A stretch of 64,000 bases of DNA. It comes from an uncultured bacterium (GTDB lineage Bacteria > Cyanobacteriota > Vampirovibrionia > Gastranaerophilales > Gastranaerophilaceae). Both the position numbers and the translations under genes were made by a program. This document shows, piece by piece, positions 3,694 through 63,000 of the stretch. Every line of letters begins with the position of its first letter. The stretch's first letter is position 1. The notes beneath the pieces are model-generated. The model was given only the letters and a program-made list of their open reading frames with translations, was not told the origin of the DNA and made no database searches. The stretch spans positions 62,001 through 126,000 of the forward strand of contig CADCKD010000001.1 in assembly GCA_902801985.1 (NCBI GenBank). Direction: 5' to 3'.

Positions 3694-3999
3694 TTAATAC
3701 CTCGTATAATTATTTCCATGATGTGGGATTTTATTATCTAAACGTCTGCTACTTTCCTTCACGTAACGTGCCATTCCAATATATGTGTGTCTGGAAACAT
3801 ATAAAGTATTATTTAATTTAACATATACAGCATATCCTTTACGACAAGCACCATCAGATTCTTCCCAAACGCCATATCGCTTTAACCATTTCTTTGCAAT
3901 ACGTTTCTTTTTATGTTTTCGTTTTGGGTCTCCAACTTCATGTTCCCACTTAACAATAACTTTAGTTCCATAAAATAGTTCTATTGGTATATTAATCAT
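3694..3999 (-). CDS. hypothetical basic protein
   Basis: 101 aa, strongly basic between residues 24 and 45 (P-K-R-K-H-K-K-K-R-I-A-K-K-W-L-K-R-Y-G), with Y-V-S-R-H-T-Y downstream. The basic patch suggests nucleic-acid contact, but no fold is recognisable. It starts AT-richer sequence than the 1-3.1 kb block. Confidence 0.72.
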   Translation of the reverse strand: MINIPIELFYGTKVIVKWEHEVGDPKRKHKKKRIAKKWLKRYGVWEESDGACRKGYAVYVKLNNTLYVSRHTYIGMARYVKESSRRLDNKIPHHGNNYTRY

Positions 4000-5504: not shown

Positions 5505-5678
5505 TCAATCTTTTTCAATTTCAATATAAGCAAACAGACAAGGATATTTGCCTGTTGTATTGAGTATTTGTTCTATCGTTTCTGATTTATAAGACCCCTC
5601 AATAGATTTTCTAGCTTCATCTTTAGTAACCAATTCTCTTGTTGCGTCAGCTTCTTTCCATGTTCTAAAATATTTCAT
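5505..5678 (-). CDS. small hypothetical protein (57 aa)
   Basis: 57 aa. It starts at 5678 after AAGGAGACCAAATAA and reads MKYFRTWKEADATRELVTKD, ending A-Y-I-E-I-E-K-D. It fills the gap between two genes in the same direction and spacing, which supports expression. Function unknown. Confidence 0.72.
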   Translation of the reverse strand: MKYFRTWKEADATRELVTKDEARKSIEGSYKSETIEQILNTTGKYPCLFAYIEIEKD

Positions 5679-5702
5679 TTATTTGGTCTCCTTTTTGTTT
5701 AA

Positions 5703-6059
5703 TTAATAAATATCTTCAAGACTACTGATTGCATCATTTATGTAATCATTAATATCATTTTCTTTTGATTCTTTTTCGTCTTCATACTCTTCATCATCTT
5801 TATCCATATTATTTATTTCTTCTAAAACTTCAATAGCTTCTTCTAATTTATCAACAGCTTCCTGTAAATTATCAATTGCTTCACTTGATTCTTCTCCTCT
5901 CATTGAATACTGAAGATTCTCAGGCATATTGTCATAAGCATCTTCTTCTTCCCAAAGAATATCCTCTATCTCATCTCTGGCTGATTCAATAATATCATAA
6001 CCAGCATTCTCCAAAGTACTAATAACAGCTGCGATTCTTTTCCTTCTTGATTTGTTCAT
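5703..6059 (-). CDS. acidic helical phage protein
   Basis: 118 aa, highly acidic, heptad-like throughout. It contains D-N-M-P-E-N-L-Q followed by E-A-I-D-N-L-Q-E-A-V-D-K-L-E-E-A, a pattern typical of a small Firmicute phage family of unknown function, often near replication or recombination genes. Likely coiled coil. Confidence 0.78.
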   Translation of the reverse strand: MNKSRRKRIAAVISTLENAGYDIIESARDEIEDILWEEEDAYDNMPENLQYSMRGEESSEAIDNLQEAVDKLEEAIEVLEEINNMDKDDEEYEDEKESKENDINDYINDAISSLEDIY

Positions 6060-6117
6060 TTTTGTTTACCTTTCTTTTTTATATTATATATTATTTATAC
6101 TACACAAAATATTAATA

Positions 6118-7089
6118 TTAATTATCTAAAAACTTTGACATGATATCAGAAGCTTTCTTTCTATCTGCATCTTGATTACCACGAATATACAATTCTGTTG
6201 TTTTAGGGTTACTATGTCCCATCTGGTCTTGAACAAATTTGATATCTCTTGTTTCATTATACAAATGAGTACCAAAAGTTGCTCTAAGTTTATGAGGAGT
6301 AATATGTTTCCCTTCAATATCTGCTGTATATTTTTTTACCAAGTTAGAAATAGCACATTGAGATAATCTGGTTCTATTCTTGGAAATAAACAGAGCTTCT
6401 TCGTTTCTTCCTTTTAATAATTCATTTCTTTTATTAATCCATAATTGTAATGCATTAATAGTTTTATCAGGTAAAATATATTTATGAATTTTACTTCCTT
6501 TATCCATTACAATTAAAGTTGAATCATTCCAATTAATATTATTTAAATCTAATTTAAATAAAGCGGAACATCTAATTCCAGTTGATAAAAACAATAATAA
6601 TATCGCAACGTCTCTTTCTTTCCACTTTTCTTGTATTGTTTTAGCCTGTGAAGAACCTATACCATATCTGATATTAACAAAAGTTTCTTCAACTTCCTCT
6701 TTTGTTAAAAAAGCTTTTTCTCTTTTTTGTTTGGTTTTAATCGATTCAATGTTTTTAGGAGCACTAATTTTTTCCATAGGGTTGTTATTTGTTTTTCCAC
6801 TATATAAAAGATATTCACCATATCTTTTTAAAGCAAAATAAGCACAACGCTGATATCCATTTGTTTTGTTTTTTAAACTTGCAAGATAAGAGGTATAATC
6901 ATCAAAATCAATAAATTCTTTTTTAGTTGCATTTAAAAATTTAATAACATGAATTAGATAATTATAATTAGTAGTTAATGCCCCTTTATTAGATAAATAA
7001 TTAATATATCCTGTTAAATTAGGATATTCTTCAAGTTTATTATTAATCATGCGCTCTATATTATTTTCATAATTCTGAATTCCGTTCAT
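6118..7089 (-). CDS. tyrosine recombinase / integrase
   Basis: 323 aa. The N-terminal core-binding domain (about residues 20-100) is followed by a catalytic domain with the complete set: R173 in S-T-G-I-R-C, K197/K200 in the beta-hairpin K-G-S-K, H266-x2-R269 in T-P-H-K-L-R, H292 in M-G-H-S-N, and nucleophile Y301 in E-L-Y-I-R-G. Such enzymes cut and rejoin DNA via a 3'-phosphotyrosine, integrating phage DNA or resolving multimers. The start at 7089 has AAGGAGGTTAGC upstream; a start at 7137 would overlap the previous gene. It is served by the promoter at 8020-8048 with the membrane protein before it. No att site was recognised. Confidence 0.93.
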   Translation of the reverse strand: MNGIQNYENNIERMINNKLEEYPNLTGYINYLSNKGALTTNYNYLIHVIKFLNATKKEFIDFDDYTSYLASLKNKTNGYQRCAYFALKRYGEYLLYSGKTNNNPMEKISAPKNIESIKTKQKREKAFLTKEEVEETFVNIRYGIGSSQAKTIQEKWKERDVAILLLFLSTGIRCSALFKLDLNNINWNDSTLIVMDKGSKIHKYILPDKTINALQLWINKRNELLKGRNEEALFISKNRTRLSQCAISNLVKKYTADIEGKHITPHKLRATFGTHLYNETRDIKFVQDQMGHSNPKTTELYIRGNQDADRKKASDIMSKFLDN

Positions 7090-20875: not shown

Positions 20876-20924
20876 TGTTTTACCTTCCTTTCTTTATTTA
20901 TTTTATTTATTAATACCTACAATC

Positions 20925-20965
20925 AATATGCATAGATATTTTATTTACCTTTATCTATGCATATT
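20925..20965 (-). terminator. perfect 14-bp inverted repeat
   Basis: AATATGCATAGATA (20925-20938) and its exact complement (20952-20965) flank a 13-nt loop. It lies between the stop of the 20980-21270 gene and the start of the next leftward gene. No long T-run follows on the minus strand, so it could be a weak terminator, an mRNA-stabilising hairpin or a dimeric protein-binding site. Confidence 0.5.
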
Positions 20966-20979
20966 TATCTAGGCATTAA

Positions 20980-21270
20980 TTACCATACGAAGCACAAGAA
21001 ATTGTGCTTGCCAAAATTAATTAGACCGTCATCGGAACGGTCAGATTCCGTTCCTTTGTGGTCAAATTTGAGGATAAATTTCTCTCCCTTGTGAACATTG
21101 GGAGAATCCTCTTTTGTGTAACAAGAAAAGAGATTACCTGTTGTATCTTCAAAGGTAATCTCATTTCCGTTTACTGAATATACCTGTCCTTTCATTGTGT
21201 AGGTTGCGTCAAGATGACAGCATATAAGAATAATGAATGTGCAAAAAATTAAAATTAACTTGTTTTTCAT
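20980..21270 (-). CDS. exported small beta-rich protein
   Basis: 96 aa. A signal peptide or lipoprotein-like leader (MKNKLILIFCTFIILICCH) precedes a beta domain with M-K-G-Q-V-Y-S-V-N-G-N-E-I, D-T-T-G-N-L-F-S-C-Y and a late D-R-S-D-D-G-L-I. The order of elements is the same as in the 18968-19297 protein, so the two may be distant paralogs. L-I-C-C is not a canonical lipobox. A leader element at 21321-21359 lies about 50 nt upstream. Confidence 0.78.
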   Translation of the reverse strand: MKNKLILIFCTFIILICCHLDATYTMKGQVYSVNGNEITFEDTTGNLFSCYTKEDSPNVHKGEKFILKFDHKGTESDRSDDGLINFGKHNFLCFVW

Positions 21271-21320
21271 TTACTTTACTCCTTTCTGTTTTTGTTTTTT
21301 TTATTTGCGTTCTTAATAAA

Positions 21321-21359
21321 CACAATCGGAGAGCCGAATTTTTTCGACTCTCCTATCTG
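21321..21359 (-). ncRNA. repeated leader hairpin, copy 1
   Basis: On the minus strand: CAGATA, an 11-bp stem (GGAGAGTCGAA paired with TTCGGCTCTCC through one G-U pair), then GATTGTG. The same flanks enclose different stems at 22073-22113 and 22609-22649. The odd pair is G-U only in minus-strand RNA, supporting that orientation. It lies in the 5' leader of the 20980-21270 gene. Confidence 0.6.
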
Positions 21360-21466
21360 TCCACTAAGAATGATGATGTGGGATGTGCAGAAGAGATGAT
21401 AAAGATGGGAAAATTAGGGCGTTTTACCATAGGCAGTCTTACTCCTTTCTTTTATTTTATTTCCTT

Positions 21467-21980: not shown

Positions 21981-22072
21981 AGTTGTTCCCCTTTCACAAT
22001 CATAGTTTGCAAGTGCCCAAACTGCGCTTCAGCGTCTGTCCAGACACAAGCCTTAGTTGCCGTGCTAATAAG

Positions 22073-22113
22073 CACAATCAGAGTGCGGAGTTGTGACTCT
22101 GCACCCCTATCTG
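22073..22113 (-). ncRNA. repeated leader hairpin, copy 2
   Basis: Minus strand: CAGATA, a stem that pairs about 11 of 12 positions with two G-U pairs and one C-A mismatch, loop CACA(A), then GATTGTG. The loop is complementary to the downstream TTGTG, so an H-type pseudoknot can form. Same flanks as copies 1 and 3 but a different stem. Confidence 0.6.
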
Positions 22114-22117
22114 CTCA

Positions 22118-22258
22118 TTAACGAGTAACGTGAATAGAGAAATAGTCTGTGTCCACATTCTCATATTCTTCATAGTTGACGGTTGCATAGTTGTAGTATG
22201 CGTCAACATTATTGGAATCAACCTCATTCATGAGGTCATCGAAAGTATAATTGAACAT
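22118..22258 (-). CDS. small acidic protein (46 aa)
   Basis: 46 aa from the ATG at 22258 after a run of G (GGGGGGCACA). It reads MFNYTFDDLMNEVDSNNVDA and is rich in Tyr, Asn and acidic residues. Its stop lies just upstream of leader hairpin copy 2. Highly acidic small early proteins can be DNA mimics, but there is no direct support. Confidence 0.7.
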   Translation of the reverse strand: MFNYTFDDLMNEVDSNNVDAYYNYATVNYEEYENVDTDYFSIHVTR

Positions 22259-22554: not shown

Positions 22555-22608
22555 AGTCACACCTCACCTTCTGCCCACTTTGGGCGTAATATTTTTATGG
22601 TTTAGAAC

Positions 22609-22649
22609 CACAATCGGACAGGCAAGTTGTGGCTTGCCTGTCCTATCTG
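22609..22649 (-). ncRNA. repeated leader hairpin, copy 3
   Basis: Minus strand: CAGATA, a perfect 11-bp stem (GGACAGGCAAG/CTTGCCTGTCC), loop with CACAA, then GATTGTG that can pair with the loop. Most regular copy of the three. It lies about 55 nt upstream of the 22273-22554 gene. Confidence 0.62.
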
Positions 22650-22682
22650 ACCCTAAACTATGTGCGTGTTACGAACTAGGAA

Positions 22683-23315
22683 TTATGCGAACTTGTTCAC
22701 GATAGTGCCGTTTTCACGGACTTCCCACGTACCGCACTCTTCAATACCACGATGCAGAATGAAAGCGGCGAGGTCAGCGTTGAAGCGTACCGCTTTCTGT
22801 GCATCAATGACATAGCCACGGCGTTTCACGTTCATGAACAGAAGTACGTCAGAGATGCCGTTCTCCCAGTTCTTTTTTCTGCCCTTTTTAGCAGTGATGC
22901 CGAGGGATTCGAGCCACTCACCGATTGCAGAGCGGAGTTCCTCAATCTTACCGTCATTGACGGCATCAGCGTAAGCCTTGTGCAGAGTTTCGGGAACGAG
23001 TGCGGAAGCGAACTCTTTGGAAGCCTTACGAGCGGGCTTAAGCTCCTCAGTCTTTTTGCCCTTTGTTGCCTTAAGACGTCCCTCAGCCTGTGTAAGGTTG
23101 TCACGAGCGGCGCACCACTCGTGAGAGTTGCGGTCAACAGTCAGAGAGTCGAGAACGCCGTGAGCGGATACGACCGCATCCTCAGCCTCAGCGAGAGGAG
23201 TTGCGAACTTATCGCAAATATCCTCAATCTGCATCTCAGCGGACAACCAGCTAGTAAAGTTAGTGATTGCATCAGTGTTCATGGTTGCAAAATTGAGTCC
23301 AGTAATAGTTGCCAT
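22683..23315 (-). CDS. first leftward protein gene, hypothetical
   Basis: 210 aa. First protein gene after the structured RNA segment and probably the most strongly expressed of the leftward set. Helical N-terminal half (A-E-D-A-V-V-S-A-H-G-V-L), a basic linker K-A-T-K-G-K-K-T-E-E-L-K, helical middle, then a compact end (D-L-A-A-F-I-L-H-R-G-I, W-E-V-R-E-N-G). GC near 50%, far above the rest of the window, suggests recent acquisition or strong codon selection. No family recognised. RBS AAAGGTGGTACACT. Confidence 0.75.
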   Translation of the reverse strand: MATITGLNFATMNTDAITNFTSWLSAEMQIEDICDKFATPLAEAEDAVVSAHGVLDSLTVDRNSHEWCAARDNLTQAEGRLKATKGKKTEELKPARKASKEFASALVPETLHKAYADAVNDGKIEELRSAIGEWLESLGITAKKGRKKNWENGISDVLLFMNVKRRGYVIDAQKAVRFNADLAAFILHRGIEECGTWEVRENGTIVNKFA

Positions 23316-23379: not shown

Positions 23380-24047
23380 CGTTATCGTGCGATAACGGAC
23401 ACTGGGAGTCGAACCCAAATATCTATAATAGTCGCATTAATAGATTGTCGCCGGACGTCCGCTAAAAATACGTTCTACAGGTAACTTGCTATTCACAAGT
23501 CAGAGTTCACGGTGTGCTATGCACACAACGATAGTCTTCATCTCGCCGTTTTCTCAGCGCCCCTTTATTTTCGAGTGGTTTTCTACAATCATGACGGTAG
23601 ACTCTCTCCCCTACTTCTAAAGATATTCCGATTAGCCCCCGAGACTTTTCACGTTCTACGTGGTAGCCCTGTATACTAGTTGTCTATATTACACCCTTTT
23701 CCAGTATCCACAACGTTATTACTTGTGCCGACTTCGTGAGACTGTTTCCAGCGACAGCAACAGCTAATGAAACCTAACAGTTTGCCCCACGGCGCACTTT
23801 CAATGGCAGAGTATCCCCCAGAAAAGTGTAGGTATATTATGTTTTCGAGCTGTAGACAGCGGACGGGAAGCCAGCCCACTGCATGCCCTACGCAATTAAG
23901 CGTGTATGGGTACAAGGGAAACGAAGTTAATCAAATCCCAACAACACAACCTACCTACTTTTATCCGTGCCGATAGGTAATAGCACAAACGGAACAACAT
24001 AAAGAATTCAATCGCACAAACAATTTATTTATGTTCCTTTTCTTTAC
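23380..24047 (-). ncRNA. candidate large structured RNA
   Basis: About 670 nt without a credible gene, far GC-richer than the flanks and full of inverted repeats. On the minus strand I can pair: CAGTGG/CCGCTG; CGC-TTAATT-GCG inside CCC...GGG; GTTTC/GAAAC; GTGG-ATACT...AGTAT...CCAC nested; CACGT-AGA-ACGTG; GTGTGC-ATA-GCACAC; ACTTG/CAAGT; GGACGTCC. The 3' end is a tRNA-like T-arm with acceptor (23395-23462) followed by a CGTTATC/GATAACG hairpin (23380-23397). An extended -10 promoter lies at 24054-24062. Size, phage context and the tRNA-like end recall the GOLLD and ROOL classes of ornate phage RNAs; assignment to either is unproven. The alternative is a cis-acting packaging or replication structure. 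Confidence 0.6.
23395..23462 (-). ncRNA. tRNA-like 3' domain
   Basis: 68 nt. A canonical T-arm (5-bp stem TTGGG/CCCAG, 7-nt loop TTCGACT, at 23402-23418) is joined to a 7-bp acceptor-like helix (GCGGACG at 23456-23462 with TGTCCGT at 23395-23401, two G-U pairs). The interior is too short for a D-arm plus anticodon arm; instead one 9-bp bulged helix (ATCTA...TAAT/ATTATAGAT, loop GCGACT) replaces them. No CCA is encoded. This is a tRNA mimic or a degenerate tRNA, not a decoding tRNA. Confidence 0.5.
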
Positions 24048-24053
24048 ACTCTC

Positions 24054-24062
24054 ATTATAACA
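24054..24062 (-). promoter_or_regulatory. extended -10 promoter, leftward
   Basis: On the minus strand TGTTATAAT, a perfect TGn-TATAAT extended -10 hexamer, with only an A/T-rich stretch at -35. Predicted start is near 24047, immediately before the structured RNA segment. It is the natural entry point for leftward early transcription. Confidence 0.6.
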
Positions 24063-24186: not shown

Positions 24187-24294
24187 CTATTTAAATTCTA
24201 TTTATCTATTTAAATTCTATTTAAATTCTATTTATCTATTTAAATTCTATTTATCTATTTAATTCTATTTAAATTCTATTTAATCTTGATATTT
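24187..24294. repeat. CTATTTA tandem repeat array
   Basis: Ten head-to-tail units of two kinds, about 11 nt (CTATTTAAATT) and 8 nt (CTATTTAT), interleaved irregularly. Almost pure A/T. Sited between the divergent promoters and about 120 nt from the DnaA boxes, it fits a DNA-unwinding element or iterons of a replication origin. Confidence 0.75.
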
Positions 24295-24416: not shown

Positions 24417-24446
24417 TTATCCACAAAGTTATCCACATAATCCACA
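24417..24446. other. three DnaA boxes (putative origin)
   Basis: TTATCCACA occurs perfectly at 24417-24425 and 24429-24437, and a one-mismatch copy TAATCCACA follows at 24438-24446. These are the consensus sites for bacterial DnaA. With the A/T repeats at 24187-24294 they make a plausible theta-type origin that recruits host initiator. No phage DnaA-like or Rep gene is visible in the window. Confidence 0.72.
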
Positions 24447-60066: not shown

Positions 60067-63000
60067 ATGGGGGTAAATGCTGATGGCAAAATAAGTTTAA
60101 GTGTTGGAATAGATGAAGGACAAATTAAACAATCAGCTAGTCAAATAAAATCAATTCTTAAAAAAGAAATAAGTACTATTAATTTAGACCAATTTTTTGA
60201 TGATAAAAAAATACAACAAGAAGTGCAACAAAGTATTGATAGCATTAATAAAGTATTGTCTAAGTCTAAATTTAAAAAAATAGATACTTCTACTTTTGTC
60301 CCAAGAATAGATGCAATTATGTCGAATAAAACTGCTTCTGAAGAAGAACGCTCCAAAATAATATCTGGTTATAGTCATCAATTCGCAGCTTTAGATAAAT
60401 ATGGAAGCAAAGATATAATACCGCTTTTGTCGAATAGTAAAGTGCTAGAACAATATATGAAAGATTTAACTAATGTTGTTGATTTTGTACAAAGTATTAA
60501 AGGATTAACTACAAAAGAACAAAATAAAATGATAAAAGATTTAAGTAAAGGAGATGCAGATGATATTGCTGCTGCTTTTACTTTAAAAGATTTACAAAAG
60601 ACTTATGGTACTAATATAAAATATAAAGTTAAGCCTAAAGATATAGTTCCATTATTACAAGAATCAATTGAAAATATGGATGCAACTAATGAAGAACAAT
60701 TAAAAGATTTTTTAGGCTTATTTAATAGAGGTAAGTATTTAGCACAAGTAGACTCAAGTAAAAGTGGAGTTTTTAGAAATTTTTTTGAACAATTTGAAAA
60801 TCAATATAAAAAAGAAATTGAATATTTTCAAGCTCAATATCCAGATTTATTTACTAAAATGGAACGTGAAGTAATTGGTATGTCAAAAGATTTTGACAAT
60901 CTTTATAATACTAGATATAAAAATAAATCTTTAGATAGTGCGAATTTGGTTAAAGGATTAAAAACAAATAAAACAATAAATCAGAAACCTGATATTCAAA
61001 CAGAAAAAGCCCCAACTTCAGCTCAGGAAGTTGCTGATACGGTTTTAGATGTACAGTCTGATGTTGTGGAATTGAATAAAAAAGTTGAAAAAGCTGAAGA
61101 ATTGGCGAATAAGGCTAAAGAAGCAGCTGATGAAGTAAAAAAAGAAATTAATAATACCAATAAAAATGTTAATAAAAATAAGCCAAGTACTGCAAAAGTA
61201 GAAAAAAAAGATGGACAAAATGAACAAAAAAATGAGCAACAATCTTTTCCTGCTCTAGAGCAAGCAAAACAAGATATCGATGAAACTATTGAAACAGAAG
61301 AAAAATCTTTAGAAAAATTAAGAGAAGAAAGAAAACAATTACAATTTGAAAGGCATATAACAGAAAAAACAAAAACAAAACTTGAACAAGAAAATAAAGT
61401 TATAAATAGTGTTTTAAATAATACTTTTAAAGACGAATCTAAAAAAGAAAATTATAATCGATTGAAAAAATTATACGAAGATTATAAAACAAAAAAAGAA
61501 GCACTTGATAAAGTTGACGATGAACAAGATGCTTTTCAGCCTTTAACACCTGAATGGAATAGTTTTATCCCATCTAGAAATAAAGCTAAGAAAGAAGAAA
61601 GATTAGCATGGTTAAAATATTATAAAGCATTTGATGTAGCTAAAAATGGTAAAAATCAAGTAGCTAATTCAAGATTGGAAAGATATAACCCAGAAAAAGA
61701 TAATTTGACTGAATTTGACAGTGATACATTACGCATATATATAGAAGATTTAAAAAATGATATAGAAAATAATAAAAAAGCTATAGATAATTTTGAAACA
61801 GAAATAGATGACTATCAAAAAAAAATAGATGAATTTAATGAAAAGATAAGCAAATTACACGAAAAAGAAAATGAAGTTGGTAATAATATGTCAAATGAAT
61901 CAGCTTCATCTTTTAATAAATCTAATGGGGGAAAAACAACAAAACCTGAAATTCCGATTGACCTTCAACAAGAACTAGGAGCTGTTTTTGGATTTGATTT
62001 TAATGATACTGATGAAAGTTCTGATATAACTTCTGCTGCCCAAGCTGAAGAAAATCTTCGAGAAGAAACAGATGGAGCGAATAAAGCATTAGAAGAACAG
62101 AATAATATTGTTAATGATATTGCAAAGACTACTGATAATTTAGTATACCACATGGGACAAATCAATGGTGATAAAACTGTTTTGTCTAATATATTTGGTG
62201 AAGAATTACAAAAATCGAATGAACATAATATAGGTACTGGTTTATATGGTTCAAAATCATCAAAAGATTATTCTAATCAAGTTTTATCAAATGAAGATTT
62301 AGATAATTATTATGCTATTGATACTTCAGAATTAAAAATGTATGAAGCACATGCAGAAGAAACAGCTAAAGAATTTTATGATTTTATACATCGTTTAGAA
62401 CAATTTTGTATAATGATGGGTAGTGGTTTTGAAGGGTTTGATGATAATTTAGAAAATATAGATGAAGAAGCTTTATATTCAACTGCTCAAAAATTATTTC
62501 CAAATTTAGAAGCATTCTTTAATGATTTTGATGAATTTGATGAATATATTAATGAAATGATTACTCTTGTTGGGAAGAGTGGAATTAATGCAGATGGAAC
62601 AGTTAATCCCATTAAGATGCGTTTGTTTCAAAAGGAATTTGGAACCGATGATATTAAAACTAGATTTTTAAAAGAGATGGGGTATCAGGGTGTAAATCTA
62701 TCTGGAACAAAATATGGAAATAATGTTATTTTTAATCCTTTAGATAATACCAAGATTGTTGCGTCTGGGAAAAATATAGAAGAAGTTATAGAGCAAGCTA
62801 TTAATAAAGTAAGTTCAAAACAAGAGAAAAATGTTGAAGAAACTAAACCGCAAACGCCTCAATCAAAACCGCAAACAGGTAGTACAGCTAATATCAAAGA
62901 AGCTATTGAAGAACAAGAAGAACTAGAAGAAAAAACAAAAAAAGCAACTGATGCTTTGAAAGACCAACAGCAGACTTTGGCACAATCAAACGTAAAACCT

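Follow-up and report, generated by a model that had tools for sequence, protein, structure and literature searches.

A noncoding, probably transcribed segment with a tRNA-like end at the early divide of an SPbeta-like phage

Introduction

ROOL and GOLLD are large phage RNAs that build RNA cages, and we know of no function for RNAs of this type. tmRNA is an RNA of about 0.4 to 0.7 kb with a tRNA-like acceptor/T-arm at its 3' end. Some eukaryotic long RNAs end at tRNA-like elements; in the case of MALAT1/mascRNA, RNase P cuts at such an element and thereby generates the 3' end of the noncoding RNA. ROOL and GOLLD are found in phages and prophages and range from about 570 to 800 nt and more; the linkers of GOLLD sometimes hold tRNAs (PMC12286853). 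The abundant long RNAs of staphylococcal phage K (Kayvirus) have been likened to GOLLD and ROOL by their position and expression (PMC9241854).

The window analysed in this study is a stretch of 64,000 nucleotides (positions 62,001 to 126,000 of contig CADCKD010000001.1, assembly GCA_902801985.1) from an uncultured bacterium of the Gastranaerophilaceae. A large structured RNA had been predicted at its positions 23380-24047, and this segment was compared with known RNA families and with the same locus in related phages.

Results

Phage genome and early divide

The source of the window, contig C1 (149,458 bp, in a 2.1-Mb genome bin), has termini with an exact 99-bp overlap, which indicates that the molecule is circular and complete. 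C1 encodes an integrase, a portal and a terminase. Due to the likeness of the terminase to YonF of phage SPbeta (41.7% identity, 94% of the length), C1 was regarded as an SPbeta-like phage, which supports the expectation that the segment is phage-encoded. Two ordinary tRNAs of the phage were detected with ARAGORN.

The divide separates a leftward operon of small genes from rightward genes and has the segment 23380-24047 on its left. The motif scan resulted in a pair of DnaA boxes, TTATCCACAAAGTTATCCACA, at 24417-24437 (plus strand), which is the sole closely spaced pair in the 2.1-Mb assembly. The boxes are adjoined by AT-rich short direct repeats at 24187-24294, a candidate unwinding element. 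The distance from the segment to the boxes and repeats is 350-400 bp. Since the TTATCCACAAAGTTATCCACA boxes are kept at the matching divide in L006 and L007, the two nearest relatives, the divide is probably the phage replication origin. The first ORF of the leftward operon (22683-23315, minus strand, GC 0.51) encodes a predicted helical protein of 210 aa with a poor structure model. It had no recognisable homologue in the collections searched and no meaningful match in the PDB, and no kinship to it was detectable in the first ORFs of L006, L007 and G414.

Coding potential, promoter and GC content of the segment

As expected, the approximately 670 nt were found to hold no credible gene: the only ORFs of at least 60 aa were a 79-aa frame with a TTG start (minus strand) and a 69-aa frame with an ATG start (plus strand), both implausible. 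The extended -10 promoter element, TGTTATAAT, was located at 24062-24054 (minus strand), 7 nt before position 24047, exactly as the original prediction had it. The element is not listed by the consensus promoter scan due to its poor -35. On these features, the segment is probably transcribed from the minus strand, with the predicted 5' end at about 24047.

The GC content had been described as much higher than in the flanks. This is correct for the right flank (0.44 in the segment versus 0.25) but not for the left gene, the GC of which is higher still (0.51), and the segment is therefore part of a GC-richer block of about 2 kb. No intrinsic terminator was found between the segment and the 210-aa ORF in the terminator scan. 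A perfect 7-bp inverted repeat at 23380-23397 (CGTTATC-GCAC-GATAACG in the minus-strand reading) overlaps the end of the acceptor stem described below and has no T run; it could be a hairpin or an operator, but not a canonical intrinsic terminator.

Folding of the segment

The minimum free energy (MFE) of the whole segment corresponded to a z of -0.35 with 60 shuffles and -0.81 with 20 shuffles. The number of perfect stems of at least 6 bp was 9, compared with 4.7 ± 2.2 in shuffled sequences (9 was reached by 6 of 100 shuffles), and no excess over shuffles was detected when G-U pairs were allowed. The 'at least eight clear helices' proposed for the minus strand are thus close to the background of the composition, although the nested pairing GTGG-ATACT...AGTAT...CCAC is present at 23711-23660. 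With the minus-strand folding and the single-sequence statistics at background (z -0.35), a large ornate RNA was not demonstrated. The parts that are solid by themselves are the tRNA-like module and, to a lesser degree, the 5' hairpin GGAACATAAA...TTTATGTTGTTCC at 24038-23991 (minus strand; stem scan, z -2.0).

The tRNA-like module at the 3' end

The predicted tRNA-like T-arm/acceptor ending is the solid part of the observation. The module at 23462-23395 (minus strand) was detected as a sub-threshold Rfam match, in a rule scan and as a local MFE cloverleaf. It consists of a 7-bp acceptor, GCGGACG (23462-23456) paired with UGUCCGU (23401-23395), coaxial with a 5-bp T-arm, UUGGG-UUCGACU-CCCAG (23418-23402), the loop of which fits the consensus UUCRANY. 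The rest is a small D-like hairpin and a long anticodon-like arm, and CCA is not encoded. The module is not a full tRNA: the Rfam tRNA model gave 15.1 bits at 23462-23394 (minus strand; E up to 10, permissive filters), under the 29-bit cut-off, a canonical D arm and a 7-nt anticodon loop are lacking, and no tRNA was called at this position by ARAGORN.

The rule scan required five T-stem pairs, the T-loop pattern and seven acceptor pairs, at least four of them G-C. So that the L007 loop UGCAACU would be included, the T-loop pattern was made wider; the loop of the window satisfies the strict consensus. The 12-bp module was matched once in the segment and in none of 20,000 dinucleotide shuffles. 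The MFE structure of the module folded alone was the cloverleaf, with an unexceptional energy (z -1.4). In the thermodynamic ensemble of the full-length segment, other pairings prevailed and the pair probability of the module was near 0.

The exact search of viral contigs with the 21-mer of the T-arm/acceptor resulted in two matches, an ordinary tRNA-Trp and an unrelated tRNA-like end. Two further tRNA-like sequences were observed elsewhere. At 7169-7095 of L086 (minus strand), a tRNA-like acceptor/T-arm, called by neither Rfam nor ARAGORN, ends a noncoding stretch of about 330 nt just upstream of an apparent terminase small-subunit gene. A tRNA at 13295 of L075 (plus strand) apparently has a second tRNA-like sequence with the T-loop UGCAACU inserted at the anticodon region.

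Known RNA families and homologues

The whole Rfam 15 library of 4227 families was searched at gathering thresholds and at E up to 10 with permissive filters. No family matched the segment at gathering, and on the minus strand only the sub-threshold tRNA match was found at E up to 10. GOLLD, ROOL, HEARO and tmRNA, which had been named for a covariance-model search, were all excluded as the identity of the segment, and OLE was excluded at the model level as well. The ROOL model (RF03087) remained below its 99.1-bit threshold even with permissive filters; that this test works is seen from the true ROOL of 261.6 bits found in a related phage by the same search. GOLLD gave no match at gathering or at E up to 10. 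In the case of tmRNA, there was no call by Rfam or ARAGORN, the tRNA-like domain does not join the two ends of the RNA and no tag frame was called.

Blastn searches of the phage and plasmid collections, of 31 related phage records and of 288 genomes sampled from the family detected no homologue of the segment. Three weak matches were rejected, of which one was a promoter match, one lay by chance within the gene of a methionyl-tRNA synthetase and one came from the region upstream of a flagellin gene. The score of the direct alignment of the window RNA with the L007 RNA was not above that of shuffles. The motif AUAAAGGGGCG...CGAGA is common to both, but apart from L007 itself the viral scan with it resulted only in chance matches, nearly all in coding sequence, and the motif was therefore not counted as evidence.

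The same locus in related phages

Both flanks of the locus align to L006 and L007, whereas in each of the two a different sequence replaces the block at about 21.3-24.4 kb of the window. L006 has a leader of only about 270 nt in which no tRNA-like module was found. A near-identical motif, CCCAAACTGCGCTT(C/G)AGCGTCTGT, occurs at 22015-22050 of the window and at about 4500-4530 of L006, within otherwise different variable blocks.

In the 149-kb contig of L007, an ORF-free structured segment of about 1.1 kb (5690-6790, minus strand), with no credible genes, comes after a 190-aa ORF and a strong terminator. Its MFE on the transcribed strand corresponded to a z of -4.5, and 23 perfect stems were counted, compared with 9.9 ± 3.1 in shuffles. 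TATAAT lies at the start of this segment, and its 3' end is a cloverleaf with an 8-bp acceptor, a 10-bp anticodon-like arm, a variable arm and a T-arm with the T-loop UGCAACU, directly upstream of an RBS and an ORF. The cloverleaf had a z of -3.3, and the module was found in none of 8,000 shuffles. No Rfam match was obtained for the L007 segment, which probably represents an independent large phage RNA. The modules of the window and L007 are alike in that CCA and a canonical D arm are missing and that ARAGORN and Rfam give no tRNA call for them. A segment with a tRNA-like end thus occupies the variable early locus in two of the three close members (the window and L007, not L006).

The second assembly of the L007 phage (L275/G415) overlaps by 490 nt only, which are identical and end before most of the RNA. 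In the distant phage G414/L260, a leader of about 390 nt (GC 0.45) at the matching place by the DnaA box is followed by the first early gene. The early region of G395 was not found at the contig ends. The true ROOL of 261.6 bits is located in a more distant relative of 165 kb, at 126759-127354 of the L062 (G413) contig and 6760-7355 of L131, with different neighbour genes in the L062 contig. This ROOL and the structured RNA of L007 show that the phage group does carry large RNAs. The two lend indirect support to a large folded RNA in the window.

A stop-codon RNA element in the same operon

A new RNA motif, better supported than the segment 23380-24047, was detected as a repeated intergenic element of the operon. 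On the operon strand, it consists of an outer helix, CAGAUAGG, an inner hairpin, CCGAUUGUG and the closing side of the outer helix; CAGAUAGG and CCGAUUGUG are invariant in ten copies from five related phages. Four copies are in the window (minus strand). The copy at 22599-22659 starts 26 nt past the stop codon of the 210-aa ORF, the one at 22063-22123 has a stop codon within the outer helix, and a third is at 21311-21369. The fourth, at 20908-20981, overlaps a stop codon and scored 47.3 bits with a model built without it. One copy was found in L006 (3869-3790) and two in L007 (4170-4108 and 3840-3758), with descending coordinates. The distant phage L167/G414 has two, at 3781-3863 and 5543-5603 (42.7 and 32.7 bits), and L277/G395 has one at 532-597 (40.1 bits), all ascending.

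The model was built from a six-copy set, in which 12 of 19 pairs had compensatory changes and 96.5% of the cells were paired, compared with 35-49% when slid; the further copies were found by this model. In the nine-copy set, aligned with MAFFT and not fitted to the structure, 15 of 19 pairs covaried, 95.9% of the cells were paired and the covariation score was 0.84 (0.26 shuffled). The stop codon of the upstream open frame lies within 3 nt of the element start in seven of nine copies; no upstream frame of at least 35 codons was found for the copy at 21369. The element had no Rfam match and did not occur in the remaining genomes sampled from the family. As a terminating ribosome would cover and melt the outer helix, the element may couple the termination of one small early gene to the stability or translation of the next.

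Discussion

The reading preferred here, tentatively and at somewhat less than an even chance, is that the segment heads the leftward early transcript as an untranslated RNA and is cut off from the mRNA, probably by RNase P, at the tRNA-like module. Its parts are present in the DNA in the corresponding order: a noncoding stretch, a promoter element, the module and the DnaA-box neighbourhood, with an analogue in L007. RNA polymerase would start at the extended -10 element (24054-24062) beside the DnaA-box origin, and the transcript would run through about 590 nt of untranslated RNA and the module (23462-23395) into the genes of the leftward early operon. With its 12 coaxial base pairs of acceptor and T-arm, the module would mimic the feature recognised by RNase P, and a cut at its 5' side would separate the upstream RNA, about 590 nt long, from an mRNA in which the 210-aa protein has a short leader. 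The separated RNA may then act early in infection or in the extrachromosomal state. Processing is the most economical reading because the module, recognisable in principle by RNase P, lies between the untranslated RNA and the coding region with no intrinsic terminator. From this arrangement we infer the transcription, the RNase P cleavage and the function of the upstream part as an RNA. The folding energy of the whole segment, no better than that of shuffles, and the loss of the module to other pairings in the full-length ensembles argue against release. The lack of significant similarity between the segments of the window and L007, and the short leader of L006, without the module, also point away from it.

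The position of the segment directly upstream of the 210-aa ORF, with no intrinsic terminator between, would suit a 5' leader acting only in cis. Such a 730-nt head would stay on the mRNA and regulate the early protein through attenuation, access to the RBS or mRNA stability. L006 and G414/L260 have GC-richer leaders at the corresponding place beside the DnaA boxes, in line with this reading. However, it is not obvious what a nearly complete tRNA-like module would do in a pure leader, and the structured RNA of L007 sits past the first gene and a strong terminator and is not a first-gene leader. A purely cis-acting head is possible but rather unlikely. It is also doubtful that the segment is a non-functional or decaying spacer, i.e. 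a recently acquired GC-richer block with a degenerate phage tRNA gene, where the other helices reflect composition. The MFE at background and the marginal excess of stems fit such a spacer, as do the lack of a homologue in the genomes, phage records and phage and plasmid collections searched, the low tRNA score in a phage with two ordinary tRNAs and a locus that is different in every relative. On the other hand, compact phage genomes seldom retain junk as long as 670 nt next to an early promoter, the promoter element is intact and an independent cloverleaf-ended segment lies at the L007 locus.

The proximity to the DnaA boxes and AT-rich repeats, with boxes at the divide in L006 and L007 too, may point to an RNA that controls replication, either a primer precursor or a copy-number regulator of the adjoining origin. 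This is very improbable: the sequence of the segment is unconserved though the origin is conserved, and direct priming at the boxes or the AT-rich tract is impossible since the segment is transcribed away from both.

The segment might belong to a new class of large origin-proximal phage RNAs with their own 3' tRNA-like cleavage tag. It would be a fast-diverging class of two members (about 0.6 kb in the window and about 1.1 kb in L007) in a group with a ROOL-bearing distant member; we regard this as a speculative proposal, unlikely as it stands. A large phage RNA of neither the ROOL nor the GOLLD family that has a definable early promoter and carries its own processing site would lend itself to direct testing, and the use of tRNA-like tags for release would, if true, explain how phages free such RNAs from polycistronic transcripts.

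In comparison with ROOL and GOLLD, the segment is likewise a candidate large phage RNA, and a true ROOL occurs in the more distant relative (L062 contig). In contrast to them, it has no adjoining ordinary tRNA, lies at the early/origin divide and not in a tRNA island, and matches neither model; strong structure was not demonstrated for it. The long RNAs of phage K are near tRNA genes, unlike the window segment, and the likeness to them is one of description and not of sequence comparison. With tmRNA, the segment shares a similar size and an acceptor/T-arm at the 3' end. However, the two acceptor strands of the segment are found together at the 3' end, within 70 nt, which leaves the upstream RNA outside the tRNA-like domain, and neither a tag ORF call nor CCA is present. 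Although the segment belongs to a bacterial phage and is unrelated in sequence to MALAT1/mascRNA, the predicted arrangement is alike: a tRNA-like module would end a long untranslated RNA, with further transcript downstream.
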